Below are positions 3,230-61,930 of a DNA stretch of 64,000 bases, piece by piece. Origin of the DNA: Haliotis asinina (taxonomy: Eukaryota > Mollusca > Gastropoda > Lepetellida > Haliotidae); NCBI RefSeq assembly GCF_037392515.1, contig NC_090280.1, forward strand, positions 62,013,504 to 62,077,503, read 5' to 3'. The position numbers and the translations under genes are program-made. Under the pieces are notes generated by a model. It saw nothing but the letters and a program-made list of their open reading frames with translations. It was not told where the DNA came from and did not search any database. How positions within the stretch are numbered: the stretch's first letter is position 1; each line of letters opens with the position of its first letter.

Positions 3230-4725
3230 CATATTGTTTTATGATAACATAATGGTGATCTAGGCTATGACTGTAACAAGCCTATGTTCAGATCTTCTCA
3301 GCATTGCAAACAGCTTTTGAAAGGGGAACCAGAATGTAGTTTTTAGACCAGTAAATGCATGTGTTAAAATGTGAAGATTATCGTATCATTTTGGCATAAC
3401 ATTAGAGTGCATTTGTGAATCGTTTCCACATTGTAACATTATCAGTTCTACTCTGTTAAAAGATGCAAATCTGAAATCCGCAATTTCCTTTCCTTTTGTG
3501 TGATGTGTTTATTTCTTATTTAATTGTATTGCAATGACTCCAGGAATTGGAAATAATCAGTTCAGAATTCAGTTTTATTGTTCTGTGTTGATGAATGTAT
3601 TCAACTGTGCCTGTACTTAAATACAACTGTCATGAAATACATGCTCTGACGTGGGAGAATCCAGACAAAATATATCATGTTTAAACTGTCATCTTGTAAG
3701 TAATGTTCAGATGAAATCATTGAATGATTTGAAGTTGGTATGTTGTTAGTTGGATAGTCACTATATGTACTTTCGTGCAGTAGTTGTCTCCCCTTGATTT
3801 CTGTCCAGTTTGATGAAAGAGTAAGCGAAAGTTCATGCCACCATCTTGTTGAAGGTTCTCAGACTGTGAGACAATCGTCAATCATTTCCAACATATTTCT
3901 CAGGAGTGTACAAAGATGTGGGACGCCATGATGATAAATGCGTTCACTGTATTTCTCATACCTTGACATGATATGGCTGAAATATGCCAATTTGACTATA
4001 AATATTAACTCACTCAATTGGCACAACAATCTAAAATAGAGAAACATAACCATTCATTTAAATCCCTTGTAGGAATATTTTAAGTTAGAGGTATGGAATA
4101 TTAAAAGTTGTATCCAGGTATCAGCACTGGTTATTTGTGTATCAACACATGGAATTTCTCACTTGTCTTTCCTGTGTGTCTGATGTTACTTCTAGGATCA
4201 TATGAGGGTCTGTGACGGACTCAAAGAGTAATGGTCATCATACTTATGGTTCTTATTGTTAAACATCCGCTAAAAAAGAGCATAATATTGCAACCGAAAG
4301 TTCACAGCGCTTGGTTAGAATCGCCTTGCACAGTTCATAGGTGCTTTTAAGTTTGCTCAAATTCAAGGTGCAATGAGAGTGTTTTAAAATCAAAACTGGA
4401 CATTGATTGGAAAAGATTTCAAATTCAGTATTTAATGGTGTCACAGGAACAGTGCCAAGATTTGATGAAGTCAACTGTTTTTCATCTAATTATTGAGAAA
4501 TATTAAGTTTGAATCTACTCAAATATTTTTATGAAGTTGAGGTCATACAAAGTACGACTGATGAGACTGAGATACTTGCTTTTGTTGACAAAGTTTGTTG
4601 TAGCAGGTTAATGTTGTGGAAAATACTGTTCAGTTATCCTTTCATACCTAGAGATGTTGCTGTGCCATGCTTGTTAGACTGAAGTTGTTCACATTGCTCA
4701 GGGGCTTGCCATCTGTTACAGGGAA

Positions 4726-4815
4726 GCAGTGACGTAGGGTAGTGGCTAAGGCATTTGTTCACCACACCGAAGACCGGGGTTTGATTCGCTATGGCTACAA
4801 TGTGTGAAGTAACAT
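4726..4815 (+). repeat. SINE-A-like head, diverged
   Basis: AGGGTAGTGGCTAAGGC followed by GGGGTTTGATTCGCTATGG keeps the A-box/B-box spacing of the SINE-A head. Only ACAATGTGTGAAG of the body remains. Confidence 0.55.
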
Positions 4816-5911
4816 TGGCATAAATGAATAAACTCATGGACTTTCTGTTACAGGGGGATGGGGTCAAGAGAAGATAATGCAAAAGCAGTTTAAGATTTCT
4901 TTTTCGTAACCTTCCAAAATATATGTATATTTTTATCAAAGAGATAGTCATGTATTGTAGATTCCCTTTGCGCGCCCTTATATAATACATGACAAGTCCC
5001 TGAACCAGAAATAGAAGTTAGAGTACTTGATCTTTTGTAACTTCAGTTTCAGAATTATTGTACAGCTTGATTTTAGCTTCACTCAAAATGTGAATGACAA
5101 ATTGTGCCTTTATCCTACACACAAAGCAATTGTTTGCTCTAGTGGGGAATTGTTTGAAAGAATACACATTTTGTGTATATAGGAGAAGCCTGTTGAAATG
5201 GATAGCTGCATGATAGTGGACGTTGTGCTCGAGACATTTGTTCTTAAAATCAATATGGGAATCCTAAGTTATTAAGTCTGTTCAGGCAAGTTAGAGTGTA
5301 ATATTGTTGATAAATGCATCTATCAAAATGGCAGGAAATGTTTTAGATATTTTTAAGAGAAACGGAGAAGGGCAGATAATTTTGTGTCCAGAAAGGCAAA
5401 CTAATCCACCTGAACCTGTTGACAACAGTGTATTACAAACGTGAGTAGGGTCCTGACCTGCTGTTGTTGAAATGAATTACCTAGATCTGACATTGCTCAT
5501 CATTGTCCAGTTGTAGTTGTTGCCATGTGGCATACATTTCCTTTCCATGTTTCAAGATGGTAATGTCAAATATAGTCCTTTGTATTTCTAGGAATTTTTA
5601 TTTGCCACTGGACCATTTTTGTCAAATACTTAGCCCATGTATCCTGATAATGACAGTACAGTACAGTTTAAGTTACAAAATTAAATAACCATTTTATGAG
5701 TGGAGTGCATGTGCTTTTCTTTCATTTTGTTCAGAAAGTGATGGTTTTGATGCCCTACAAAAATTGTATTTTTGCAACCTCAAGGATATGTTATATGTAG
5801 CACTGAAGACATATTACCATTGCAGTAAGTTGTATGGTCAAGCGGGGTCTGTCGGGACACATTTACTCAATTGTTCTTGCTCAGCAGCTGTTCCAGGACT
5901 TCCTCCCCTTA

Positions 5912-6048
5912 CGGGGCAGTGGGGTAGCATTATGATTAAAGTGTTGGTTCGTCACACTGAAGATGCAGGTTCAAATCACTACATGGGTACAATGTGTGAA
6001 GCCCATTTCTGGTGTCCCTTGTATGATGTTGCTGGAATATTGCAATCT
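5912..6048 (+). repeat. SINE-A copy
   Basis: GGGGTAGCATTATGATTAAA, CAGGTTCAAATC, ACAATGTGTGAAGCCCATTT and TGCTGGAATATTGC appear in the family order. The tail is lost. Confidence 0.85.
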
Positions 6049-7078
6049 GTGCATCATCGTGATGCATGAGTACATGACTGGGAGGACCAGTATTCAGTGG
6101 AGATGCCGACTTGCGGCCCTTCCATCATCTTGTGATGCTGCAGGTCCATGCTGTATGGATATCAACTCCCTCAAATACAGATGTCATTTTGTGTCGTCAT
6201 AATCTGTGTCATTTTGTCCTTGACATTCAACACAAGGACTTTAAACACCTGATGGTGAAAAGAGCAGGATAGTTGCAAAACTTCACCAAGGTCAAATTAG
6301 ATTTGCCATGTTCATATTTGGTCGTCATACCCATGGTTTTACCAAAGTGTTCAATTTAAATGGCCAGCATCACTTTGGGATCCAACCCAAATTGGTCTGG
6401 TATGCCAATGCTGAAATACCATTCAAACCTGACCTGGTTGTCTCTCATCATGATGTGAACCAAACTCATTTCCGTTACTTATGCATTGGACAGGTTTGTG
6501 GGTGGTCGATTGATTAGGGTGTTTGCTTTGCACACAGATGACCCATTCTAGTGCGTGTTCCGCCTTTGTAAAACTGCCATGTTGCAGAAAGCTGCTTGTA
6601 ACCATATACTTGCATTCCACTGACAAGGACACATATTCTATTTGAACATTGCTGTTCCACCCTTGGATGACCCCCATGTGACACTGGCTGGCTTGCACAA
6701 ACCATTGTTCTTGTCCTCCGTGTGCTGGACCATCTGATCCATTCATCCAGTTCCAAAATACATGAGCTGGGACTGTTAATTCCTATACTTCATGGGAGTG
6801 CTCATGCTTCTGAAGTTAAATGCTTTTTTCGATTACTTTGATCTCGTTTAAATCAGACTGTTTAATTTGAAACGATAAAATAACACCTCTCTAATAAATT
6901 GCCTCAGATTGTCCCTGAGTGAACTTGGGCTGCCCTATCAAAACACAGGATGTATAGATGGCACTGTCCTTGCTAGTGTGTATAAAATATCTGTACAATA
7001 TGGGATTATTTTCTTATTACATTCTGAGTCCCCGATTCTGTGGAGACTTATGGTTGTGTCCTCAGGTCTTCACAGGAA

Positions 7079-7253
7079 AGGGACGTGGTAGCCTAGTGGT
7101 TACAGCATTTCCTCATCACGCCGAAGACCCAGGTCTGATTACCAACATGTGCACAATGTGTGAAGCCCATTTCTGGTGTCCCCTGCCGCAGTATTGCTTG
7201 AATATTGCTAAAGGTCGCATAAAACTAAATGCACTCACTCATGCACTCACACA
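7079..7253 (+). repeat. SINE-A copy, near full length
   Basis: The order is GTAGCCTAGTGGTTACAGC, CAGGTCTGATTACC, GCCCATTTCTGGTGTCCCC, AATATTGCTAAAGG and a CACTCACTCA-type tail. The B-box is mutated. Confidence 0.88.
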
Positions 7254-8367
7254 GATGTATCATGTTGAGAACTGATGACAGTTTCCACAAATTTATCTTG
7301 GCAGTTCTAACTCAATACTGAAGTATCTTGTAATGCTAAGCCTGCTTTAGGTAACATGGCCCTGACTTAGTATAAGGATTATTTAGGATTTACATTTACA
7401 GTGGACATTTAGTTTTAAGCCTCAATAAATAGCTTTAACATTTTAACAGTTTCAACCTGGATATGAAGAAATTGGGCTCAAGCCATTTGTATGCACCATC
7501 GTATTACAGTCGTCCGTCCATCGCACACCTGCACTGGCCACTGACCCACAGCACAAGGAAGGATAGCCATCTGAAGTTTCATCCCTTCTCATCTAGTTGT
7601 ATTGGTCAGCACAATGACCTATCTACCAGTGTCACTTTGTTATTTATCTCCAGATACACTGGTCAAGTGAAAGTCTTGTTGCAGGATCATATGATTGGTA
7701 GTTAATTATGTAGAAATGTTTGTGTAGATAGTTGTTTTTTTTTGCATATTTGTGTTGTTTAATCCAAACTCTATACTGGTCACACACCTGATGCTACCTG
7801 TCTGGGAAACTTTGTTGTATAGTAATTTACTTACCTTTTTAGTGCTGGGTGCTCAACTGATCGATATCTGGTGAATTAACAATTTTTGGAGGGCAGGGGC
7901 AAAATATATAGAAATGTACACATTTTGTTTCATAATACCGTTCATCGTTTCTGGATTCATAAAGCAGATATTGATATTTTTCTACAGTATATTTAAGTCA
8001 CAAATTATTAATAAACATTCCATTAGTAGGGTCGTATAAGGATTATCAGGACATTGTACTGAGGTTAATGTTATTAAAATGATTCATGTAAGGGGTTAAG
8101 GAATGTGTTGAAGATTTGCATTGACATGATAGAAATATTAGTTGGGGGTGTATGCTGAATGCACTCTGCAGCAGATACTTAAGTTGTTCTGACATGCTGT
8201 ACTGTAGAGCCCAGTGAGCAGTGTGTGAATTGTGTGTTCCACTGATTTTATCACATGTGTATACCTTTGAAGTATGTTGTGGTCGATATTATTTAACATT
8301 ACTTACAGTGTTTTGTATTGTGATTTTAATATGATTTTATCTTTTATTTTATCAATGTTGATTTGTT

Positions 8368-15800: not shown

Positions 15801-18800
15801 TGGCTAGTGATGATTTAGGAACTGATTGTTTTCCCTGACAATCCTGACTTGCTAATTTTAGCAACAACATCATCCTCAAAAACATAAACAAATAGTCAGA
15901 TACAGGTTATTACAAATAACGATCTAAATCGTAAGTAGTAACACCATTGGTTAGTTCTGTAATGCTAGAGTATGACCCCTGTGATTCACCACTGGTTGAA
16001 AGCAAAACCCAGATGGCTATGGAGGCTTCTCCAACCCCAGGAATCTGAGAAAGTCAGAGATGATGAGCAGACAGATTTACATGCATATGAGGCAGAGGAT
16101 GATGAGGCCTAAACAGTTCAAGTTTCTGACTGTGACAGCTACTATGGTAGTGAGGCAGAGGTTGGTGAGGCCCTGACTGTGACAGCTACTATGGTAGTGA
16201 GGCAGAGGATGATGAGGCCTAAACAGTTCAAGTTTCTGACTGTGACAGCTACTATGGTAGTGAGGCAGAGGTTGGTGAGGCCCTGACTGTGACAGCTACT
16301 ATGGTAGTGAGGCAGAGGATGATGAGGCCTAAACAGTTCAAGTTTCTGACTGTGACAGCTACTATGGTAGTGAGGCAGAGGTTGGTGAGGCCTAAACAGT
16401 TCAAGTTTCTGACTGTGACAGCTACTATGGTAGTGAGGCAGAGGATGGTGAGGCCCAAACAGCTCAAGTTTCTGACTGTGACAGCTACTATGGTAGTGAG
16501 GCAGAGGATGGTGAGGCCTAAACAGTTCAAGTTTCTGACTGTGACAGCTACTATGGTAGTGAGGCAGAGGATGGTGAGGCCTAAACAGCTCAAGTTTCTG
16601 ACTGTGACAGCTACTATGGTAGTGAGGCAGAGGATGGTGAGGCCTAAAGAGTTCAAGTTTCTGACTGTGACAGCTGCTATGGTAGTGAGGCAGAGGATGG
16701 CGAGGCCCTGACTGTGACAGCTACTATGGTAGTGAGGCAGAGGATGACGAGGCCTAAACAGTTCAAGTTTCTGACTATGACAGCTGCTATGGTAGTGAGG
16801 CAGAGGATGGTGAGGCCCAAACAGCTCAAGTTTCTGACTGTGAAAGCTACTATGGTAGTGAGGCAGAGGATGGTGAGGCCCAAACAGCTCAAGTTTCTGA
16901 CTGTGACAGCTGCTATGGTAGTGAGGCAGAGGATGGTGAGGCCTAAACAGTTCAAGTTTCTGACTGTGACAGCTACTATGGTAGTGAGGCAGAGGATGGT
17001 GAGGCCCAAACAGCTCAAGTTTCTGACTGTGACAGCTACTATGGTAGTGAGGCAGAGGATGGTGAGGCCTAAACAGTTCAAGTTTCTGACTGTGACAGCT
17101 ACTATGGTAGTGAGGCAGAGGATGGTGAGGCCTAAACAGTTCAAGTTTCTGACTGTGACAGCTGCTATGGTAGTGAGGCAGAGGATGGTGAGGCCCAAAC
17201 AGCTCAAGTTTCTGACTGTGAAAGCTACTATGGTAGTGAGGCAGAGGATGGTGAGGCCCAAACAGCTCAAGTTTCTGATTGTGAAAGCTACTATGGTAGT
17301 GATGGCAACAGCTCAGATCCTTCCAGTGATGATGTCTTAAGTCCTAAAGATCATTTAACATGAAGATAATATGCCCCACCATGCGCCGTGCACATTTGTC
17401 TTTTCAGGAGCAGATCTTAAAACTGTTCAATATTTCTTCACTAAACTTGGCACACAGATAGGTCTGGTGGTGTATCGGTGCCTTTTGGTAGTTTCAGAAT
17501 TCTGAATTAAATAATTCTGGCATTTCCATAGCAACAAGGTTTACTTTGTATGGCTATTCTTAGAGTCTGTCCCATCAATGTCAGAGGCTCAGAGTTAATA
17601 GTCTGAAACAATCAATTTGTGAAATGAAAGTTTGAACTGTTCTCATATGTTCTCTTTATTGTCTATCATGAATTACTCGAGCCAGTAAGGTGTCTGAACG
17701 GCCAGTGACATTTTTGGGTCACTAGCCCTGCTGGCTCATCCACCTCACCCAAAGCAGAGTTGAACCCAAATACCTCACCCATCAGACCCAACCCAGAGTT
17801 GAACCAAACTACCTCACCCAAATGACCTAAACCAGTGTTGAACCCAGCTACCACACAACTGAATCAAAGTGGAGTCGAACCCAACACTCACTCACTCACT
17901 CACCCATTCATTCACTCAGCCCTGACGACTACCCACCTGCTGGTCCATCACTATGGAGTTAACTTCTGGGTTGGTAAACACCCCTCTGAAATAAAGTAAG
18001 CACGTATAATTATCATAATAACAATAATGATCAACAGAAAGCAAAGATATGCTCATGTCATGTATAAACATGACAGAGGAACCCAGTTATCATAATATAA
18101 TCAGTAGTTGTCTAGATACTCTGCAAAATTCCATTTACATGAGATAGCGGTTTTCCCTTACGATAATAACAAAAATCGATGAAAAGAAGGATTAAAAATA
18201 CAGTCAGACCTTTATAAAAAATGTTCGGATAGTGAAACATTCATACTGCTGAAACCACAACATATGCACCAAGTTACTTCCCCTTAATATCTCTCCTTAC
18301 TATTGATACATGAGGAAATCAAAACAAAACATCAGAGACAATCACAGGATTTAATACACACTGTTTCACTCACACATTCGACTTACAAAAGTAGTCTTTA
18401 ATGGTGGGCTGCTGCAAAGGTTGTTTTAAAGAATTGAGCATGCCCATTGCTTTATCTGCATTTTCGAAGTCACCCTGGCACTCGTAATACATAATATTAC
18501 TGCAGTATGAATAATACCAGCATTAATCGGTTGAATACAGGATGTAGTGTTGGGTGGAAGGAAGTGTACTTTGACATTCGTCAGCTTCACAGGTTTGCAA
18601 CTGTGGGTGGCTGTGTTGTTCACGAGAAGTATGACGCACGGCCATCTGACTTACACTGTCTATCAAAAATTCTAAGAGTGAGTGAGTGAGTGAGTTTGGT
18701 TTTACGCCGCTTTTAGCAATATTCCAGCAATATCACGGCGGGGGACACCAGAAAATGGGCCTCACACATTGTACCCATGTGGGGAATCGAACCCGGGTCT

Positions 18801-21800: not shown

Positions 21801-24800
21801 GTCCTTCCTCAGCACAGGTGATGTAATGCCTGATAAGCGACCTTTTGTATTAGGCCTTGAAAGTCCGAATTATGCCTGCATCCATTGGTTGAATGTGTGA
21901 TATGGTATTTGCAATGTGATCGAAGCACATTTATGGCTTGCAGCAATGTCTAGAAGCAAAATCACTTTAAGTCCATGTGAACGCATCTGTCTGTCAAAAA
22001 ATTTCAGCCAATCAGAAAAGAGCTCACTGGTCATCCACGCCTTTGAGTTATGTCGGTATCTCACGCACACTTCTGGATTAAAATCACGTCCGAAACATCG
22101 TGGTCTCCTTGCTTTACCGATCACAAATGGCTTAACTTTCACAGTTCCACTTGCATTCGCACACAATGCCACAGTTATTCTGTCTTTCGAACGTTTCACG
22201 CCAGCAGTGGCTTTAGTTACTAATGTGTAATTTGGTCCTAATCTGTAGAAAAGTCCCGTTTCATCAATGTTGAAAATTGTTTCGGCATCGTACTCGCTCA
22301 AAACTTTCTTCACTTCCTCTCTCCCCGCGAGGACTGCAGTCTTGTCGGCACTGGCTGCTTCTCCCTGGAGCACTTGCTTCGATATAGAGTGTCGAGATTT
22401 GAATCTGGCCAGCCATCCACGAGAGTACACGAAATCCGTAATTGACAACTTGTCACCGAAAGTCTTTAGCTTTTAAAATTAATATCTCGTCATTAACAGC
22501 TACATTCTTGCTGGTCATTTCGTTCATCCATAAAAAGAGCACCTCCTACATTTTCTGATGTTTGGCGTTTCTTGCTCGAGACAGGGCTGCGGAGTCTTCA
22601 GGAATGGTAAGCCATTTCTCCTTGCTCTTCAATATGTCCCTAATTGTAGATCTCCCCACTGAGTGTGCAAATATTTCACCAAAGTGTTTACTTAGGAAAT
22701 CTAAACTTGCTTTAGGATGTTCTTCTTTATACCTTGCAATCTCTCTTTTCTCAAATGCGGTTATCTTGTTCCGTTTTCGCTTGGAAAGTTGACTCGCCAT
22801 GTTTGCTGATACGTGTCGAACAAACTGTGAATGTACAGCATCTTCAGTCGGGAACTTTTAATGTCTCATTAAAACAACATCCCTTAATTGACATTTCTCA
22901 AAAGTTAACAAGAGTTCATCATGTCAACTCAATGTTTATTGTTCCCAATGACTGAGTGCAGTTACGAAAACATCGCCCGAGAAGCAAGGGAGGCGCTGTT
23001 ACGGTTCGTGAACATGATTTACAGTGTCCGGACAATGAAGCAATTTACTGGTTACAGCTATTCATTGTCCGGTTCCGGAAACCGAATTTCCGGATTACCG
23101 AGGCAAATTATATAGGCATTAATTGGTAACAAGCTAAAATCTCCGGGAGACGAGACATCCGGATTATCAGTGTCCTGACTAACGAGGCTTCACTGTAGTC
23201 CAGTAAGATTATAAAAACTGCTACAGATGCATTCTCATCATCAATAATGAAGACACTTAACTGCACCAACCTTATGAGGAGATTGCTTGTGGAGGAAAGG
23301 CAATAAACAGCACCATCCTCGCTGGCTGAAGTAAAGAAAACATCGACATGTAGAGCCATTGTGTATAGTGGTATAGGATCTTTTGGATCCCTCGGGCTGG
23401 AATTCAGATAAATCATTGCATCAGACATATTTTTGTGATTCTAAAGAACAAAATGATGCAAGAAAAACATCAGCAATGGAGACACTGTCTGTACAGGTAG
23501 AGATTGAGCATCTTCTGCATCCAGTGGGTGGGTGGGGGTGGGGGCATTTCCTCTAACATTTGTACCAAACATGGTTCAGCATCCATGCCTCCAATAGCCT
23601 ATGACTAGGTTTTCTTTATTAATTATTTATCCATTTTACCCATTTTACCACCAACTGCCCTGAATGCAATGTGAAAGTCAGTGGGTATATCAAACACAGA
23701 CTTACCCTTGAATGTGAAGACTGGATTGTACGAGGCTTCATCAGCATCAGGAGAAAGACTAGAGGATAAACTGTAAGCATACAACAACATGCCATGAGAT
23801 AGCACTGAGTGGACACGTCACAGGCCATGAGATATTACTTACTCGACATGTAACATGCCATGAGATAGCACTGAAACCACATGTAACATGCCATCAGATA
23901 GCACAGAGTCCACATGTAACATGTCATGAGATAGCACTAAGAGCACAGGTAACATGCCATGAGAGAGCACTGAGTGGACATATAACATGCCATGAGATAT
24001 TACTGAGTGGACATGTAACATGCCATGAGATATTACTTACTCAACATGTAACATGCCATGAGATATTCTGAGTGGGCATCGAACATGCCATGAGATAGCA
24101 CTGAGTGGACATGAGACAGCACTGAGTGGACATGTAACATGCCATGAGATAGCACTGAGTGAACATGTAACATGCCATGAGATAGCACTGAGTGGGCATC
24201 TAACATGCCATGAGATAGCACTAAGAGCACATTTAACATGCCATGAGAGAGCACTGAGTGGACATATAACATGCCATGAGATATTACTGAGTGGACATGT
24301 AACATGCCATGAGATATTACTTACTCGACATGTAACATGCCATGAGATAGTACTGAGTGAACATGTGACATGCCATGAGATAGCACTGAAACCACATGTA
24401 ACATGCCATGAGATAGCACAGAGTGGACATGTAACATGCCATGAGATATTACTTACTTGACATGTAACATGCATGAGATATTACTGAGTGAACATGTAAC
24501 ATGCCATGAGATATTACAGAGTGAACATGTAACATGCCATGATATAGCAATGAATTCCACTGAGTACTTTAATCTGTACTGTTTGAAAACTGTTCCAGCA
24601 TTTCGGTATGTTGTGCAAACCTGTTATTGAGTAATGAGTGAATATTTTACAACACTCTTAAAGATATTCCAGCAATGTCACAACAGGGGTCACCAGAAAT
24701 AGGCTTCACACTTGTACCGATGTGGTGAATCAAACAGACATCTTCAGTGTGACAAGCAAATGCCTTAACCACTAGATTACCCCACTGACCGTTGTGGAAG

Positions 24801-33759: not shown

Positions 33760-34170
33760 TATAAAATCCCTGCTTCCAGTAAATATAAAAATTTGCGTCT
33801 GTTACCCAGAATACATACCATAACTTCCTGTGTACCACGTTCAGGATCACCAATGTTCACTAGGTGAGAATTCCGTTCACCAAACAACTGCTCACCATCT
33901 GAAAATAAGATTTACTTCAATCATAACATTAATCACAACCTTCGATGAGTCATCAATTAAAGGGGAAGTGTACACCAAAAACGTGGGGTTTTTATCTTTT
34001 GAAAAACTAAACGAAAGCTTAAAGATATGATATGTCATTATAATCCCTTTGTTTTCCGAGCTAAACAGGCCAGGGTGAACGTGTAACGTGAGTTTCTAAA
34101 AACAGTTCGGAAACTTTGCATCGGCGTTCGGGTTTCCATATTTTCCAACACATCTTAGCAACATTAGGAT

Positions 34171-36871
34171 CATCGACGACGCGTGAGAATGACCATCGAC
34201 GACGTGTGAGAATGAAAATCGACGACGTGTAAGAATGATCATCGACGACGTGTGAGAATGATCATCGACGACGTATGAGAATGATCATCGACGACGTGTA
34301 AGAATGATCATCGACGACGTGTGAGAATGACCATCGACGACGTGTGAGAATGACCATCGACGACGTGTGAGAATGATCATCGACGACGTATGAGAATGAC
34401 CATCGACGACGTGTGAGAATGATCATCGACGACGTGTGAGAATGATCATCGACGACGTATGAGAATGATCATCGACGACGTATAAGAATGATCATCGACG
34501 ACGTATGAGAATGATCATCGACGACGTGTAAGAATGATCATCGACGACGTGTAAGAATGATCATCATCGACGACGTATGAGAATGATCATCGACGACGTA
34601 TAAGAATGATCATCGACGACGTGTAAGAATGATCATCGACGACGTGTAAGAATGATCATCGACGACGTATAAGAATGATCATCGACGACGTATGAGAATG
34701 ATCATCGACGACGTATAAGAATGATCATCGACGACGTGTAAGAATGATCATCGACGACGTATGAGAATGATCATCGACGACGTATAAGAATGATCATCGA
34801 CGACGTATAAGAATGATCATCGACGACGTGTAAGAATGATCATCGACGACGTATGAGAATGACCATCGACGACGTATGAGAATGACCATCGACGACGTAT
34901 GAGAATGACCATCGACGACGTGTGAGAATGACCATCGACGACGTGTGAGAATGATCATCGACGACGTGTGAGAATGATCATCGACGACGTATGAGAATGA
35001 CCATCGACGACGTGTAAGAATGATCATCGACGACGTATGAGAATGATCATCGACGACGTATGAGAATGACCATCGACGACGTGTGAGAATGACCATCGAC
35101 GACGTGTGAGAATGATCATCGACGACGTGTAAGAATGATCATCGACGACGTATGAGAATGATCATCGACGACGTATGAGAATGATCATCGACGACGTGTA
35201 AGAATGATCATCGACGACGTGTGAGAATGATCATCGACGACGTGTGAGAATGACCATCGACGACGTGTGAGAATGATCATCGACGACGTGTGAGAATGAT
35301 CATCGACGACGTGTAAGAATGACCATCGACGACGTATGAGAATGATCATCGACGACGTATAAGAATGATCATCGACGACGTATAAGAATGACCATCGACG
35401 ACGTGTGAGAATGATCATCGACGACGTGTAAGAATGATCATCGACGACGTGTAAGAATGATCATCGACGACGTATGAGAATGACCATCGACGACGTATGA
35501 GAATGATCATCGACGACGTGTGAGAATGATCATCGACGACGTATGAGAATGACCATCGACGACGTGTAAGAATGATCATCGACGACGTATGAGAATGATC
35601 ATCGACGACGTGTGAGAATGATCATCGACGACGTGTAAGAATGATCATCGACGACGTGTAAGAATGATCATCGACGACGTATGAGAATGACCATCGACGA
35701 CGTGTGAGAATGATCATCGACGACGTGTAAGAATGATCATCGACGACGTATAAGAATGATCATCGACGACGTATAAGAATGATCATCGACGACGTGTGAG
35801 AATGATCATTGACGACGTGTAAGAATGATCATCGACGACGTGTAAGAATGATCATCGACGACGTATGAGAATGACCATCGACGACGTGTGAGAATGATCA
35901 TCGACGACGTGTGAGAATGATCATCGACGACGTGTAAGAATGACCATCGACGACGTATGAGAATGATCATCGACGACGTATAAGAATGATCATCGACGAC
36001 GTATAAGAATGATCATCGACGACGTATAAGAATGATCATCGACGACGTATGAGAATGACCATCGACGACGTGTAAGAATGATCATCGACGACGTGTAAGA
36101 ATGATCATCGACGACGTGTGAGAATGACCATCGACGACGTGTGAGAATGATCATCGACGACGTGTGAGAATGATCATCGACGACGTATGAGAATGATCAT
36201 CGACGACGTATAAGAATGATCATCGACGACGTATAAGAATGACCATCGACGACGTGTGAGAATGATCATCGACGACGTATGAGAATGACCATCGACGACG
36301 TGTGAGAATGACCATCGACGACGTGTGAGAATGATCATCGACGACGTGTAAGAATGACCATCGACGACGTGTGAGAATGATCATCGACGACGTGTGAGAA
36401 TGACCATCGACGACGTGTGAGAATGATCATCGACGACGTATGAGAATGACCATCGACGACGTGTGAGAATGATCATCGACGACGTGTGAGAATGACCATC
36501 GACGACGTGTGAGAATGATCATCGACGACGTGTGAGAATGATCATCGACGACGTGTGAGAATGATCATCGACGACGTATGAGAATGACCATCGACGACGT
36601 GTGAGAATGATCATCGACGACGTGTAAGAATGACCATCGACGACGTATGAGAATGACCATCGACGACGTATGAGAATGATCATCGACGACGTGTGAGAAT
36701 GATCATCGACGACGTGTGAGAATGACCATCGACGACGTGTGAGAATGACCATCGACGACGTGTGAGAATGACCATCGACGACGTGTGAGAATGATCATCG
36801 ACGACGTGTGAGAATGACCATCGACGACGTGTGAGAATGATCATCGACGACGTGTGAGAATGATCATCGAC
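34171..36871 (+). repeat. 23-bp satellite, about 117 tandem copies
   Basis: The unit is ATGATCATCGACGACGTGTG plus AGA. Nearly all variation is confined to three sites: ATGATCAT/ATGACCAT, ACGTG/ACGTA and TGAGA/TAAGA, all transitions. Phase is kept with very few indels; one extra ATC occurs near 34563. Each unit carries three CpGs, in contrast to the AT-rich surroundings. Unbroken minus-strand frames of up to 100 codons are a by-product: three units are 69 bp, and the T/C site switches TGA to TGG. Confidence 0.98.
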
Positions 36872-37317
36872 GGTCTGATGAAACAAAATCGAAAAATATG
36901 CGTGATCACTTTTTAAAAATTTAGTTCTCCGAGTAGTATGTTTGATATTTACATGTCAAAACATACACTAGATAACGCGATGAACTGTGCAATCTGTCGA
37001 AAGTATCGAAATGTACGATGCATGTGTTTTTCAGTTGTTTTGCCTTCCCTGCAATGAGTGGAGAATATCACAGATGAGGGCATTTCCGAAGCGCACGTGT
37101 CTCCGTGGTGTATTAAAGGAGGGATATATATTTTAAGATTTATATATGAAAGTAGAAAACTCAGACGCATTCACCAATGGTTTTGTAGGTCTGGTGTATA
37201 TACGTTTTTAATTTTCATAAAGAGGTTAGTGTCAGAAAGACAACAGATGTCAACGTTAATGTTATACTTTTATTCCACTGTACACAGAAAAACTAACGCT
37301 GTAACGCTCTTTGCACA

Positions 37318-42823: not shown

Positions 42824-47192
<4,369 letters not shown>

Positions 47193-47752
47193 GCTTTTTG
47201 GGATGATTGTAGTTGTCAACACCAATCAACAATATATTTGTCGAATTCAACAAACGCATATAATTTCCGCCCAAATAAACAATTTATTTAAATTTATCAA
47301 TGTATGCATACTATGTGTTGCACGTAAACTTTATAAGTTCACACTAGCATGATAGTTACAGATGTATAGCATTCAGCATATATTATTAGTTGAAGAAGTC
47401 ATCGGTAAACATGTTTTCCAAGCGGAACTCAGGGGAGATAATTCAAGGGGCCCTGTTTAGGTGTTTGGTTTCAGTTCTCCTGATATATATTATTGGCGAG
47501 CTTATAGTTACACTGACATCTTGACCAACATAAAAATTTTGCTTATGTTGACTAGGTAGCCAAATATCTGTTTCTCATTAATGTCTGTTAAAGATTTGTA
47601 GTCATCAAAAGCATCAAAATACAAAATATGTAAATTCCTCCCTCCCAGGACACTATGTCTATGCTTTGAAAACTACACGAAACAAAATTCTTGTTTGACT
47701 GGCATTACGTTTGCCCGTTGATCATGTATCTCAACAAAGATTAATTATACCA
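47193..47752. promoter_or_regulatory. LRRC47 5' flank
   Basis: This holds the 5' UTR and proximal promoter of LRRC47 by position only. No TATA box is evident. 47225-47360 contains TTTATTTAAATTTATC-type AT-rich DNA and 47420-47460 is more GC-rich. Confidence 0.35.
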
Positions 47753-55503: not shown

Positions 55504-58500
55504 CTAAGATGACATGTCAGATGTCGTTCTCTGTATGGAATGGCGTCCATCTTTCTCATCGTTCATAGTTGCTTCTGCCTGAAAAGTCACTGGGGAATCT
55601 GCTTGTAACCTTTCTTGAGTCTCTACACCAAGTTTAAACACTTTGGATACAACAATAAACAAAATAAGTCCCACTAGCTCCACTCCAGCTAGTAGGTAGA
55701 AGTAGTAGTCGAGGTGACACGCTTGGGTGAACACTTCGTCTGACATTGTGCAAGGCAGACGGCAGTTGATGTCACCGTAATCGGAGGAGTGGAACCACGT
55801 TCCAGTGCTGTAGAAGCCGGAGATGATGGCGGTACCGAGGAAGCTGCCAATCCCGGAGAAGAGGTAGAAGAGACCCATGATGATGCCCTTCATTGACTTG
55901 GGGGCCACGGAGTAGGCAAACTGCAGACCTGTAACACATGATGGAATTGTCTACACATCAAATGAGATCTGAATCCAGATGACAACAAAGCTGCTTTTTG
56001 TCATCTCATGACCAGTAATCTTTTCCATAATACTAGCACATGAATCTGGACCTGTTTGTACAAAAATAATTACAGACTTCATGACCAAGTAGTTATGACA
56101 AAAATAGTTAGGGATATATGTAAATTCATTGACAATCTGATGAAATATCAATCATATAAATATCAATATCCCTAAATTATTTTGTCCAGAATATATCATC
56201 CATTACACAGGGACACACCTGACATGGAAAAACAGACTCCATGCCTAACTATAGCCATATGAAAGACTCAGTAGTCACAAAAGGAGAATGGAACGACAGA
56301 TGTACCTGCCACGCTGGTGAACACCCCACTGGTGCCCATAATTTCATACAGAGGGACGTACCTGCCACGCTGGTGAACACCTCACTTGTGCCTATCAGAG
56401 CATACTGAGGGATGTACCTGCCACGCTGGTGAACACCTCACTGGTGCCTATCTAAGCATACTGAGGGACATACCTGCCATGCTGATGAACACCTCACTGG
56501 TGCCTATCAAAGCATAATGAGGGACATACCTGCCATGCTGATGAACACCTCACTGGTGCCTATCAAAGCATAATGAGGGACATACCTGCCACGCTGGTGA
56601 ACACCTCACAGGTGCCTATAATTTCATACAGAGAGACGTACCTGCAACTCTGGAAAACCCCTCACTGGTGCCTATCAAAGCATACTGGGGGACGTACCTG
56701 CCATGCTGGTGAACACCTCACTGGTGCCTATAATTTCATACAGAGAGACGTACCTGCAACTCTGGAAAACCCCTCACTGGTGCCTATCAAAGCGTACTGG
56801 AGGACGTACCTGCCATGCTGGTGAACACCTCACTGGTGCCTATAATTTCATACAGAGAGACGTACCTGCAACTCTGGAAAACCCCTCACTGGTGCCTATC
56901 AAAGCATACTGGGGGACGTACCTGCCATGCTGGTGAACACCTCACTGGTGCCTATAATTTCATACAGAGAGACGTACCTGCAACTCTGGAAAACCCCTCA
57001 CTGGTGCCTATCAAAGCATACTGGGGGACGTACCTGCCATGCTGGTGAACACCTCACTGGTGCCTATAATTTCATACAGAGAGACGTACCTGCAACTCTG
57101 GAAAACCCCTCACTGGTGCCTATCAAAGCATACTGGGGGACGTACCTGCCATGCTGGTGAACACCTCACTGGTGCCTATAATTTCATACAGAGAGACGTA
57201 CCTGCAACTCTGGAAAACCCCTCACTGGTGCCTATCAAAGCATACTGGGGGACGTACCTGCCATGCTGGTGAACACCTCACTGGTGCCTATAATTTCATA
57301 CAGAGAGACGTACCTGCAACTCTGGAAAACCCCTCACTGGTGCCTATCAAAGCGTACTGGGGGACGTACCTGTCACACTGGTGAACACCTCACTGGTGCC
57401 TATCAAAGCATAATGAAGGACTTACCTGCCACGCTGGTGAACACCTCACTGGTGCATATCAAAGCATACTGGGGGACGTACCTGCCACGCTGGTGAACAC
57501 CTCACTGGTGCCTATCAAAGCATACTGAGGGATCTGCCAGAGGATGCTCATGTCTGCTGCTTGATACGTCGTGTTTCCTGTGAACAATATCAGAATTAAA
57601 AATACCAATATCCTCTGTTTTCCAAACAACATATCCTCCACATCGATGGCCTTGGAGGAATTGGTAATACTGCTATTACCAATGATACAGAAAGGAAAAT
57701 TGCAAAACACTGGATCCGCTGGATCAAGCATAGTTGTCACTTTCTAGATCGAGAAAAAGGCGATCAAAGTGTGTTTTCTTACCATGCTTCGAAAACACGG
57801 TTTTTAAAATGACAGCTATGAGCTTTTTGACTGATTGCTGATGATACACATCATCTATTTCTCGCTTTCACTGAAAAAAGTTATATGGGTGACAGTTTGC
57901 CCCTTATGCAGCCAAGCACAATCTGCCTGCTCAGAGGTTTTGTGATAGACTCAAAGATCTCCATTTAATAAAAACGAAAAATCAATAACCCTGACTTACC
58001 GATTGTCTGAAATATGGAATTGTTTTCGCAGGGATGATCAGGATATGGCCAGAATGCCTTCAGTCGGTAGTTCTCCACTACTCCAGCCACTATCATTGCC
58101 GCCATTGCAAATGCCATTCCAACAATGATACGCTTGGTCATTCCAAAGGGGTGTCCGGCCCTGGCGAGACGAGGGTAGATGACTCGGTCAAACAATGGTA
58201 GCAGCAGAATAAGGAAGACAACATCAAACAAGGAGAACCAGGCGACCACCAGCTGAAAACATGAAGAATGAAGAAAGACATATTTCATTATTACTGTTGC
58301 TTAAAATCACATGCAGCTATTTTCCATTTACGTTTTTCTTGTTTTTTGTAAGCCAGAAAGTAATGGAGTCATAAAGAAACAGCAGACTGTACAAGAGGAT
58401 GAGAAGGTCCTAAGTATCCCCCACCCCAGTGTTCTGTTCATATCTTGACAACTGTTCATTCATATATAGTGACCTGTGAAGGTTCGGGGTAGAATAGGCA

Positions 58501-61500
58501 TTCAGCAACCCATGCTTGCCATGAAATATGACACTGCTTGTCGTAAGAGGCAACTATTGCAATTGGGTGGTCAGACTCGCTGACTTGGTTGGCACATGTC
58601 CTTGGTTCCCTATTGCGCAGATCTGTCCCATTGGGGACAACGTACACTAAGTCAAGTAACACATGACAAGGGTGACAAAGGACTTGTAACACAGTTTCTG
58701 TTTTTGAACTCCATCAACTCCATGTCCTAAAAATATGTACCAAATTTGGTTTCCCTACCTATAATGATCACTGAGAAAATCTGTCACCATTGAGATACCA
58801 GGCACGAAGTCAAGACACGCATAACAAGGGCCATAACTCAGTAACAAATTGTAACACAGTTTCTGTTTTCAAACCTACATCAAGGCATTTAAGTCCTGAA
58901 AACACTATCTGCCTATAAACTCGTCATCTCTGTTCTCAACATCTCAGACAGATGCACAGACGGAGCACAACCTATGCTCAGGTGTAATACAGGATAACCA
59001 ACTTTTCAGGCAAGGTATAGAAGCCCTCTCAGCACAACCTCTATCTTCAGCAACTGAGCAACAGGATTAAGAGCCCATGTTGGTGACAAATGACACTGTA
59101 TCCCAATTTCATAGACCGGTGCTCATGCTGTTGATCACTGGATATTCTGGACCAGATTTGAGTATTTACACACAACTAAAATATTGACAAACAAAACATA
59201 CACAGAAATACAACAAGAGTCAGGATTGGATTAAGTCCTGAATTTGTCTACTGACTTTGTAGACTGACCTGTGTGTGTGGTGGTTTAGTATCAGACTCGT
59301 TCAGGTCAATCATAAGTTTCATATGTAGGCCCTGAACTAGGAACGTTGTCTGCATCTGAAAAAGTAACAAAATATATACAAAGGCTTATGTTTCTTCCTG
59401 GTGTAAAAAGAAACAAAAGATTGTGTGTGTCATATTTCACCCCAAACTACAGTCAAACCGCGTTAATCCGAACACTTCTGATTTTCATCAAAACCGTTCA
59501 GATAGTGAAACATACGGACTACTGAAGCAAACACCACTTCAGGAGAGTTACTTCCCTTTGACATACTGAGACAAGAACACACGAACGGATACATGTATCA
59601 AATGACTTTATTACAGTTTGTAGACATAACAACTTGAATATTAACATAACAATCAATAAATACAATGTCTGAATAGATTATTTATAGTATTACACATACC
59701 AATTATGAAAGAATCACACATGTTGAGCATTGTCTCCAAGTTTTTGTCATCTCCAACACACTCGAAATAGTTTATCATGGAGTCCATACAGGTTCTCATT
59801 TGGCGGACAGTAGGAGCTGATGTTTCTCTTTGTATCTACAAATTTCTCTCTTTTGTGCGGCAGTAATTTCACATCGTTTACGCTTAGGGGCGGGACTTGC
59901 CATTGTGACTGACAGGTGTCAAGTGCAGCTGACCTCATTTTGACTCGATCGGTATTTTATACAGCAAGGAAACATGTCAGGTATTACTCTAACTAAACAA
60001 AAGTGAAACCTATTAACTGATTAAAATCACAAAATAATGACATGCTCAACTCAGAGGTGTCACATCAGTTAACAATTACAATTGAAGTCAGCCGATGTAG
60101 ACCAGCGCTAATCACAGACGTGCACGAGGTAAGACTATTATCCGAACCTTTTTGATGTACCGCCGGATTAATGAAGCAAAACCATGTGTAATTAGCCAAT
60201 CTGTTACCGCTAATTAACGTTCGGATACGGAGACTGAAGCATCGGATTACTGAATCAACAGGTAATGAGTTTATATAGTAAACAAGATTGGTTACAGCCA
60301 GCTACTGTATCGCGGGAATCGGATTGTCGGGGTCCGGACTAACGCGGCCTGACTGTACATCACAGATATCAATAACCAATAGGACCGACCCTCTTCCAAC
60401 CCACTCCTAATCATACCCTACTAGTCACTTTTTTCTTACCTGTCTGACTGACTATTCAATATCCTGTGCTACCCATCTCACCACTACTCATATTACCTGA
60501 AAGTACACCTGTATTACACATATCATCACTACACCTAAAGGTATTACCTGGAAGTACGACTGCATTTCCTCTCTCCTCTACTCTTTTAACATACAGATAC
60601 ACCTGTATTGCCCATCTCACCACTACTCCCGTTACCTGGAAGTACACCTGTATTACCTGTTTGCCCTCTACTCTTTAAACATAGAAGTACACCTGCATTA
60701 CCCATCTCACCACTACTCCCATGTTACCTGGAAATACGCCAGTATTACCCATCTCAGCACTACTCTTTAAACATAGAAGTACACCTGCATTACCCATCTC
60801 ACCACTACTCCCATGTTACCTGGAAATACGCCAGTATTACCCATCTCAGCACTACTCTTTAAACATAGAAGTACACCTGCATTACCCATCTCACCACTAC
60901 TCCCGTTACCTGGAAATACGCCAGTATTACCCATCTCAGCACTACTCTTTAAACATAGAAGTACACCTGCATTACCCATCTCACCACTACTCCCATGTTA
61001 CCTGGAAATATGCCAGTATTAGCCATCTCAGCACTACTCTTTAAACATAGAAGTACACCTGCATTACCCATCTCACCACTACTCCCATGTTACCTGGAAA
61101 TACGCCAGTATTACCCATCTCAGCACTACTCTTTAAACATAGAAGTACACCTGCATTACCTATCTCACCACTACTCCCGTTACCTGGAAATACGCCAGTA
61201 TTACCCATCTCAGCACTACTCTTTAAACATAGAAGTACACCTGCATTACCCATCTCACCACTACTCCTGTTACCTGGAAATACGCCAGTATTACCCATCT
61301 CAGCACTACTCTTTAAACATAGAAGTACACCTGCATTACCCATCTCACCACTACTCCCATGTTACCTGGAAATACGCCAGTATTACCCATCTCAGCACTA
61401 CTCTTTAAACATAGAAGTACACCTGCATTACCCATCTCACCACTACTCCCATGTTACCTGGAAATACGCCAGTATTACCCATCTCACCACTACTATTACC

Positions 61501-61930
61501 TAAATAACCTACATAACTCATGCATGTGTTTCTCGAACATTTGACTGTCCTTTCCTCTGCACTCCTCCCTCGTAACAAATAGTAAACAGTGCCAATATTT
61601 TAATCATTTGCTAAAGACCATTTTTATTTTTATGACAAAAATTCAAAAAAAGTCTCACAGAGCTGGTATGACATTTTGATTACGATCAACGTTTCATTGA
61701 GTATGAAGACCTGTTTTACCTAGAGGTACGCCTGTGTTACCTAGAAGTACACCTGTATTACCTGAAAGTACACCATCCAGTAAGGGATGAGCACGGCAAA
61801 CACACACAGGATCTTCTTCAGCTCCTTCACATCCTCCACCAGGGAGTCGTGGAATACTCCTCCATGACGATGCTTGGCATAGTCCAGGAAACTCAACCTC
61901 TCGTGGCTTGGTTCGGCCTCGTCAACCATC
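55504..61930 (-). CDS. SLC15A4: SLC15A4-like proton-coupled peptide/histidine transporter, C-terminal five exons
   Basis: This belongs to the POT/PTR family (SLC15), whose members carry di/tripeptides and histidine with protons; SLC15A4 acts in endolysosomal membranes. Exons in transcript order: 61762-61930, 59269-59355, 58000-58252, 57482-57577 and 55504-55928. They give 1030 nt, about 342 aa, with matching phases, and open in phase 2, so the N-terminal half lies beyond the right edge. Family blocks are [34 protein letters not shown] then [54 protein letters not shown] and [20 protein letters not shown]. Six hydrophobic segments fit membrane helices. The tail after about residue 295 of this part is polar and Ser/Thr-rich (QRTTSDMSS), with no ending like human SLC15A4. 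Closest match is SLC15A4; SLC15A3 is the alternative. Two introns begin with minisatellites made of exon-junction copies (see findings). Confidence 0.92.
56094..56194. mobile_element. MITE-1 copy, left end damaged
   Basis: TGACAAAAATAGTTAGGGAT at the left and ATATCCCTAAATTATTTTG then TCCAGA at the right match the ends of the element at 53865-53993. The outermost left bases are missing. It lies in the last intron of the SLC15A4-like gene. Confidence 0.75.
56297..57538 (-). repeat. 56-bp array of exon-intron junction copies (22 units)
   Basis: On the gene's strand the unit is 46 nt identical or nearly so to the end of exon 57482-57577 (CAGTATGCTTTGATAGGCAC through CCAGCGTGGCAG) plus 10 nt of intron beginning GTACGT. 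The genuine exon end is the first unit. A second variant with GGGGTTTTCCAGAGTTGCAG alternates with the first over 56586-57368, making a 112-bp higher-order repeat. Each unit keeps a GT donor after GCAG or ACAG. Confidence 0.95.
58476..58630 (+). repeat. SINE-B copy, 5' part
   Basis: GTGAAGGTTCGGGGTAGAAT, CAGCAACCCATGCTTGCCAT, TGCTTGTCGTAAGAGGCAAC and GACTTGGTTGGCACATGTCC are present. Confidence 0.9.
58635..58995. repeat. Interspersed repeat with duplicated module
   Basis: TGTAACACAGTTTCTGTTTT occurs twice (about 58685 and 58850) with AAGGGCCATAACTCAGTAAC and ACAGATGCACAGACGGAGCA. It is related in style to the composite repeat at 11480. Class unknown. Confidence 0.5.
59085..59190 (+). repeat. 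SINE-B 3' fragment
   Basis: GGTGCTCATGCTGTTGATCA, CTGGATATTCTGGACCAG and GAGTATTTACACACAACTAA match the SINE-B 3' half. Confidence 0.75.
59450..60355 (-). mobile_element. Tigger/pogo-type element, copy 3 (internally deleted, clean ends)
   Basis: The terminal repeats CAGTCAAACCGCGTTAATCC and (reverse complement of the right end) CAGTCAGGCCGCGTTAGTCC are flanked by TA. The minus strand retains only the transposase start, [20 protein letters not shown] from about 59904. The rest is lost, leaving a 906-bp non-autonomous copy. It lies in an intron of the SLC15A4-like gene. Confidence 0.92.
60450..61500 (-). repeat. 92-bp dimer array derived from another exon-intron junction (about 11 dimers)
   Basis: Each dimer (90-92 bp) has two related halves of about 46 bp. 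On the gene's strand they read GTAATGCAGGTGTACTTCTA and GTAATACTGGCGTATTTCCA. The unit near 60490-60508 reads GGTGTACTTTCAGGTAATA, an exact 19-bp match to the end and donor of exon 61762-61930. Central units are highly homogeneous; the low-coordinate end is more diverged. Confidence 0.93.
61715..61761 (-). repeat. Short junction copies directly after exon 61762-61930
   Basis: Directly after the donor the intron reads GTAATACAGGTGTACTTCTA, GGTAACACAGGCGTACCTCT and AGGTAAAACAGG: two further imperfect copies of the exon end and donor. They link the real exon to the array at 60450-61500. Confidence 0.85.

Follow-up and report, generated by a model that had tools for sequence, protein, structure and literature searches.

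When the end of an exon is repeated many times together with its splice donor, it is not obvious which of the resulting 5′ splice sites can be used if the encoded protein is to stay intact, how such an array comes into being, or why it is tolerated. A 64,000-nt stretch of the Haliotis asinina genome (hereafter the window) raises these questions for a minus-strand gene in which one exon end and the adjoining donor are present in 22 copies.

A minisatellite that begins inside a coding exon

Judged from its exons and their translation, the gene that hosts the array appears to encode an SLC15A4-like transporter of the POT/PTR2 family. When the five exons recognised in the window are spliced (Table 1; slashes mark splice junctions), they yield a single open frame of 342 codons, and the 342-residue product aligns with the C-terminal half of human SLC15A4 (8p6a, chain residues 292-562) with an E-value of 3.8e-69. 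The profile PF00854 is matched by the frame of exon 5 (E = 5.6e-15) and by that of exon 7 at a value below the cut-off (2.7e-4). Upstream of the window (locus L013) two more exon-like open frames resemble, by eye only, the first half of the protein, which is why the exons in the window are numbered 3 to 7.

The array starts 46 nt inside exon 6 and continues into intron 6 with no interruption between units, the last 46 nt of the exon forming the exon part of unit 1. TRF reports a period of 56 with 22.0 copies and 0% indels at 56302-57532 (score 1615); it also reports a form with a 112-bp unit (56298-57515, score 1918). With 22.0 head-to-tail copies of a 56-bp unit, the array is a minisatellite as commonly defined (head-to-tail arrangement, unit of 10-100 bp, many copies). 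The trinucleotides CAG/GTA are kept in all 22 units, the preceding base being G in 21 of them and A in unit 3. The original prediction had derived the array from the SLC15A4-like exon at 57482-57577, had given the unit as 46 exon and 10 intron nucleotides in 22 copies, and had placed GCAG or ACAG before each GT; splice signals and gapless SLC15A4 homology bear out the first point, TRF and cutting in exon register the second, and the base counts given above the third. Two diverged unit types alternate from unit 4 to unit 16, giving the 112-bp dimer, and the units on both sides are less regular. The two edges of the array have only a few bases in common. These observations confirm that a minisatellite grown from an exon-intron border of the SLC15A4-like gene is real, and it is unusual. 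In the literature searched (most subscription journals lying outside its scope) no listed paper concerned an array that had arisen from the end of an exon together with its donor.

Arrays are difficult to assemble, and the locus might on that account be an assembly artefact, or else a pseudogene. We regard this as very improbable, because the five exons join to an open frame that aligns with SLC15A4, because the array is ordered, with diverged ends and a homogeneous 112-bp middle, and because the 1.143-Gb assembly (159 contigs) yielded no further close copy of the gene, its relatives standing at 39-42% identity.

Table 1. Exons, donors and repeat arrays of the SLC15A4-like gene in the window.
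Feature	Position	Strand	Description and basis
Exon 3	61762..61930	-	Ends ...MVYFQ/; splice signals and SLC15A4 homology; 3′ end recurs in the following intron
21-bp repeats	61709..61774	-	About three repeats of exon 3 end plus donor; TRF, 3.1 copies
92-bp array in intron 3	60470..61494	-	Units with diverged exon-end/donor copies (TTTCCAG/GTAAC type); 23-mer matching and control 23-mers
Exon 4	59269..59355	-	Splice signals and homology
Exon 5	58000..58252	-	Profile match, splice signals, homology
Exon 6	57482..57577	-	96 nt; flanks tcacag/ and /gtacgt; homology across both junctions
56-bp array	56296..57527	-	22 units of 46 nt exon end plus 10 nt intron, with CAG/GTA; TRF and cutting in exon register
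Intron 6	57481-55929	-	1553 nt; last intron of the gene
Genuine donor (unit 1)	57472..57481	-	GTACGTCCCC; predicted U1 duplex -7.9 kcal/mol
Unit 2 donor	57416..57425	-	GTAAGTCCTT (CAG/GTAAGT); predicted U1 duplex -12.1 kcal/mol
Exon 7	55504..55928	-	Final coding exon, joined to donor 1; SLC15A4 homology; acceptor ttacag/

The array multiplied the donor of an old intron

The junction between exon 6 and exon 7 made through donor 1 (VFTSVAG/LQFAYS) is gapless relative to human SLC15A4, and unit 1 is therefore the genuine end of exon 6. The age of the intron that follows can be judged from an SLC15 paralogue on contig C5, in which an intron (YAFVGASEVFASITG/gtgaga...ctgcag/GTCTCGAGTTC) is found at the identical position and in the identical phase; it is 270 nt long and is free of tandem repeats. 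Matches to two further relatives stop near residue 201-204, which is a statement about alignment ends only. By this comparison intron 6 is old and, since it is common to a paralogue that lacks the array, an existing donor was multiplied rather than an intron gained.

This bears on the idea that the intron itself was created when a piece of exon with an AGGT was duplicated in tandem. Known tandem-duplication introns (PMC3443670, PMC4974935) resemble the present case in that a short AGGT segment is tandemly duplicated and the protein is preserved by splicing, and the AG/GT in every unit of our array has the geometry described for such gains (PMC3443670). However, in those cases an AGGT pair supplies the donor and the acceptor of a new intron, whereas our array consists of 22 copies of a donor that an old intron already had, and no intron was created. 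The acceptor that is used (55929/55928) lies outside the array, and the pyrimidine fraction before the unit AGs is poor (0.47 in all 22 units, versus 0.59-0.82 at five genuine acceptors). With the intron of the C5 paralogue at this position, and with donor and acceptor not both lying within the copies, we rejected intron gain, whose probability we put close to nil; it would require the paralogue to have acquired its intron independently.

Donor strength and the expected choice of donor

For all GT sites between 61929 and 55504 we predicted pairing with what we take to be the 5′ end sequence of U1. The 22 units carry 16 GTACGT, 3 GTATGT, 2 GTACAT and a single GTAAGT donor, the latter in unit 2, which has the best predicted pairing of all 588 GT sites in this interval. 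The view that the spliceosome faces some 22 nearly equal 5′ splice sites thus holds for most units, but fails for unit 2, which is the first competitor and a better U1 match than the genuine donor. The expectation that use of a later donor truncates the transporter agrees with the translations, as each of the 21 later donors leads into the same short reading and then a stop. If the transporter is made, the cell must therefore favour the first donor.

How the first donor could be favoured is suggested by work on competing donors. In minigenes with two identical CAG/guaagu donors and introns of 365 nt, only the upstream donor was used under exon definition (PMC9225289). The likeness to our locus is that identical donors follow one another after one acceptor; the difference is that the minigenes are engineered pairs, whereas here a natural series of 22 is found in which unit 2 is stronger than unit 1. 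The same study states that among natural human pairs of competing donors the stronger donor is dominant in 86% of events (PMC9225289), which favours unit 2 and argues against the use of donor 1. What speaks for donor 1 is its position, as exon 6 is only 96 nt long and lies between introns of 422 and 1553 nt. We therefore expect splicing to proceed mainly from donor 1, with some leakage to donor 2, which is predicted to pair more strongly with U1; this assignment of donor 1 rests on protein homology together with the published minigene and human database results.

The account that we consider probable is accordingly one of a minisatellite that was seeded at an old 5′ splice site and has become a recurrent, tolerated feature, donor 1 being used through exon definition and the array being spliced out. 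A segment of 56 bp spanning the existing donor would have been tandemly duplicated, by slippage or template switching, and would have grown to 22 units, partly in the form of the 112-bp dimer. Copies beyond donor 1 lie within the intron and leave the protein unaltered provided that splicing proceeds from donor 1. Exon definition would pick the donor closest to the acceptor of exon 6 itself, so that the array would be removed with the intron, and it is this preference for the upstream donor that would make the array tolerable. Leakage to unit 2 would give an exon of 152 nt, a frameshift and an early stop, presumably followed by decay of the mRNA. The same process would also have acted on a second donor of the SLC15A4-like gene and on the donors of other genes.

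Masking of the later donors by RNA structure was considered as a further means of favouring donor 1, and was rejected. Predicted accessibility is low for all 22 donors (0.000-0.032), with values of 0.012 for unit 1 and 0.014 for unit 2, and gives donor 1 no advantage.

Possible functions of the serial donors

The array might instead act as a regulatory decoy, the graded off-switch offered as an alternative in the original prediction: additional donors would vie with the genuine one for U1, and the share of SLC15A4 mRNA that is functional would depend on the length of the array. The conservation of CAG/GTA in every unit, the fact that unit 2 scores above the genuine donor and the shortening of the protein by any later donor would all fit such a device. 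There is also precedent for repeat number being able to matter: contraction of a repeat in intron 5 of dog LHX3 reportedly accompanies aberrant splicing (PMC3223203). That case is alike in being an intronic tandem repeat with an effect on splicing and differs in its unit, since LHX3 has six 7-bp repeats and the unit here comprises an exon end and a complete donor. A cryptic site linked to intron retention at exon 44 of the von Willebrand factor gene is likewise reported as an extra splice site able to disturb splicing (PMC8706089); that site is single and made by mutation, whereas ours form an ordered array that starts from the genuine donor. Against a decoy stands the modest degree of donor conservation. 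In the 56-bp array, conservation is mildly higher in the donor columns than over the remainder of the unit (2 of 56 windows are at least as conserved; P = 0.018 for the six invariant donor columns), but four other scored arrays, which were chosen by their donor motif, show no excess conservation of the donor window (ranks 34/58, 18/43, 19/46 and 17/35). Strong donor conservation was consequently discarded as evidence of function. Since similar arrays are moreover present in unrelated genes, we consider a decoy improbable.

Alternatively, the array could serve as a platform that recruits many U1 snRNPs and prevents premature cleavage and polyadenylation within the intron. This protection, known as telescripting, is an established role of U1 (PMC10404622, PMC5499120), and the distribution of candidate sites is suggestive: GT sites between 61929 and 55504 with predicted U1 pairing of -5 kcal/mol or better number 56 in the 56-bp array and 76 in the segment 60470-61790, compared to 28 elsewhere. 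The two introns concerned are short (about 2.4 kb for intron 3 and 1.55 kb for intron 6), however, and protection should count least in a last intron such as intron 6. A platform function is therefore hard to credit.

A third possibility is recursive or corrective splicing, in which the AG/GT borders of the units act as zero-length exons and mis-spliced units are removed later, leaving the mRNA unscarred. Excision of whole units between AG/GT borders would indeed give back the normal junction. The polypyrimidine tracts are nonetheless poor at the AGs of all 22 units, where the fraction of 0.47 falls short of that expected of ratchet sites, and recursive splicing was rejected as the main mechanism; we think it highly unlikely.

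Intron 3 also holds a donor-derived array

The original prediction was right about the gene, exon, register and copy number of the 56-bp array and about the truncating frame, but missed a related array in intron 3. This intron opens with the 21-bp repeats of the exon 3 end and its donor, and 214 nt beyond them lies the 92-bp array. A 23-mer placed over the exon 3 border recurs, itself included, at 16 places with up to 8 mismatches, and AG/GTAA is present in all of them. Its best match in the array (20/23) is attained by only 1 of 110948 control 23-mers from the window, while 4 of these controls attain 11 places at 16/23 or better and 55 attain 13 places at 15/23 or better. When the controls were centred on AGGTA, none of 90 reached either a best match of 20/23 or 11 places at 16/23 or better. 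The SLC15A4-like gene thus carries two arrays derived from donors. At the two remaining donors in the window, those of exons 4 and 5, no such array was found, the best matches being 16/24 and 13/24, respectively.

Donor-motif arrays elsewhere in the genome

Three copies of the donor motif CAGGTAAGT at a spacing of 20-50 bp gave 290 matches in the genome, compared to 56 for the reversed motif, many of these matches coming from a few long arrays. Among the matches listed there are at least 12 CAGGTAAGT clusters, all in the first 380 Mb, and all 12 were fetched. Two of the 12 examined arrays start at coding exons proven by spliced homology. The first belongs to a cysteinyl-tRNA synthetase gene (L052; 58-bp units, 10.3 copies) in which the spliced exons match PF01406 with an E-value of 2e-43; the Pfam match is continuous through the junction, the best PDB alignment is gapped just where the array exon ends, and this exon alone matches no family. 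The second lies in a DUF4487 gene (L048; 43-bp units, 11.6 copies; spliced E = 1.7e-14 over profile positions 275-349), which we take to be FIRRM-like.

Three more arrays start at exons by structure only. At L056 the array starts at the end of an open frame of 249 codons, for which PDB and Pfam searches found nothing and which may resemble DIPK2/FAM69. The remaining two, L047 and L057, are exon-like by acceptor, open frame and donor, and their peptides match no family. At L057 (C5:547000-556999, about 4288-7963) the array, apparently grown from the end of a small exon, contains 78 AGGTAAG, all 77 spacings of which are 46 bp, the donors being 78 exact CTCAG/GTAAGTA copies. Inspection by eye, for coding exons only, revealed no clear exon at the array edge of the other seven (L046, L049, L050, L051, L053, L054 and L055). 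L050 (C2:71622000-71631999) contains at 4412-7876 a 3.4-kb array of 32-bp units with GTAAGTATACCACGTG, which may have started at an untranslated exon. A second motif search gave 237 matches against 35 for the reversed motif; among those listed is L058, where an array follows an open exon of 51 codons that matched no family.

The occurrence of an intron 3 array and of arrays at exons elsewhere argues against a function special to the SLC15A4-like gene, and most likely such arrays recur in this genome and are for the most part tolerated, the 56-bp array not being a device of one gene. A further-reaching reading is that minisatellites in this genome arise preferentially at 5′ splice sites: site for site, arrays would start several times as often at genuine donors as at other copies of the motif, and many genes would in consequence have several to about 80 serial donors, possibly acting as U1 platforms or as length-dependent splicing dials. 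This depends on whether arrays begin at donors more often than by chance. Single copies of CAGGTAAGT number 12478 and those of the reversed motif 10565, and provided that the reversed motif serves as a fair baseline, genuine donors should make up about 15% of the CAGGTAAGT copies. Among the 12 arrays examined, 2 (proven) to 5 (including those by structure) start at an exon, which corresponds to 17-42%. A rough Poisson estimate, which assumes 480 genuine donors in 380 Mb (our own assumption, after subtraction of about 450 array-borne copies), gives P-values of about 0.22 for 2 arrays, 0.06 for 3 and 0.002 for 5. If the count is restricted to the 2 proven exons, arrays at exons are not significantly more frequent than expected (P about 0.22). 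The reversed 9-mer, on the other hand, forms 15 clusters genome-wide, 6 of which lie in the same 380 Mb as the donor-motif clusters, of which there are at least 12 among the matches listed. As a reversed motif without a role in splicing also forms arrays, and as 7 of the 12 donor-motif arrays are without a clear exon, the pattern in part reflects a general richness in minisatellites. Triples of the acceptor control TTTTTCAG gave 108 matches versus 41 for the reversed sequence, with 6 clusters in C1-C4. The excess of arrays at donors is suggestive only, a hint that is partly post hoc and that varies with the exons accepted, and we hold the further-reaching reading to be rather doubtful.

The window contains other repeats and open frames besides the SLC15A4-like gene. 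Its longest array consists of 117 copies of a 23-bp unit (34168-36872). A 63-bp array at 16088-17307 has long open frames on both strands, probably because its period is a multiple of three. In addition, we noted a transposase-like open frame at 21870-22472 (DDE_1, E = 5e-25; HTH_Tnp_Tc5) and, at 46182-47225, an exon of a leucine-rich repeat protein that is presumably LRRC47-like.

Implications

The SLC15A4-like gene offers a natural counterpart of the duplicated-donor experiment, with 22 sites in series here and 78 exact donors at L057, and the SLC15A4-like protein itself shows which donor must be used. It thereby allows the rules of exon definition and proximity to be tested in vivo, array length being what varies. 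If it were true that donors are favoured seeds of minisatellites, this would point to a mutational process associated with the borders between exons and introns.
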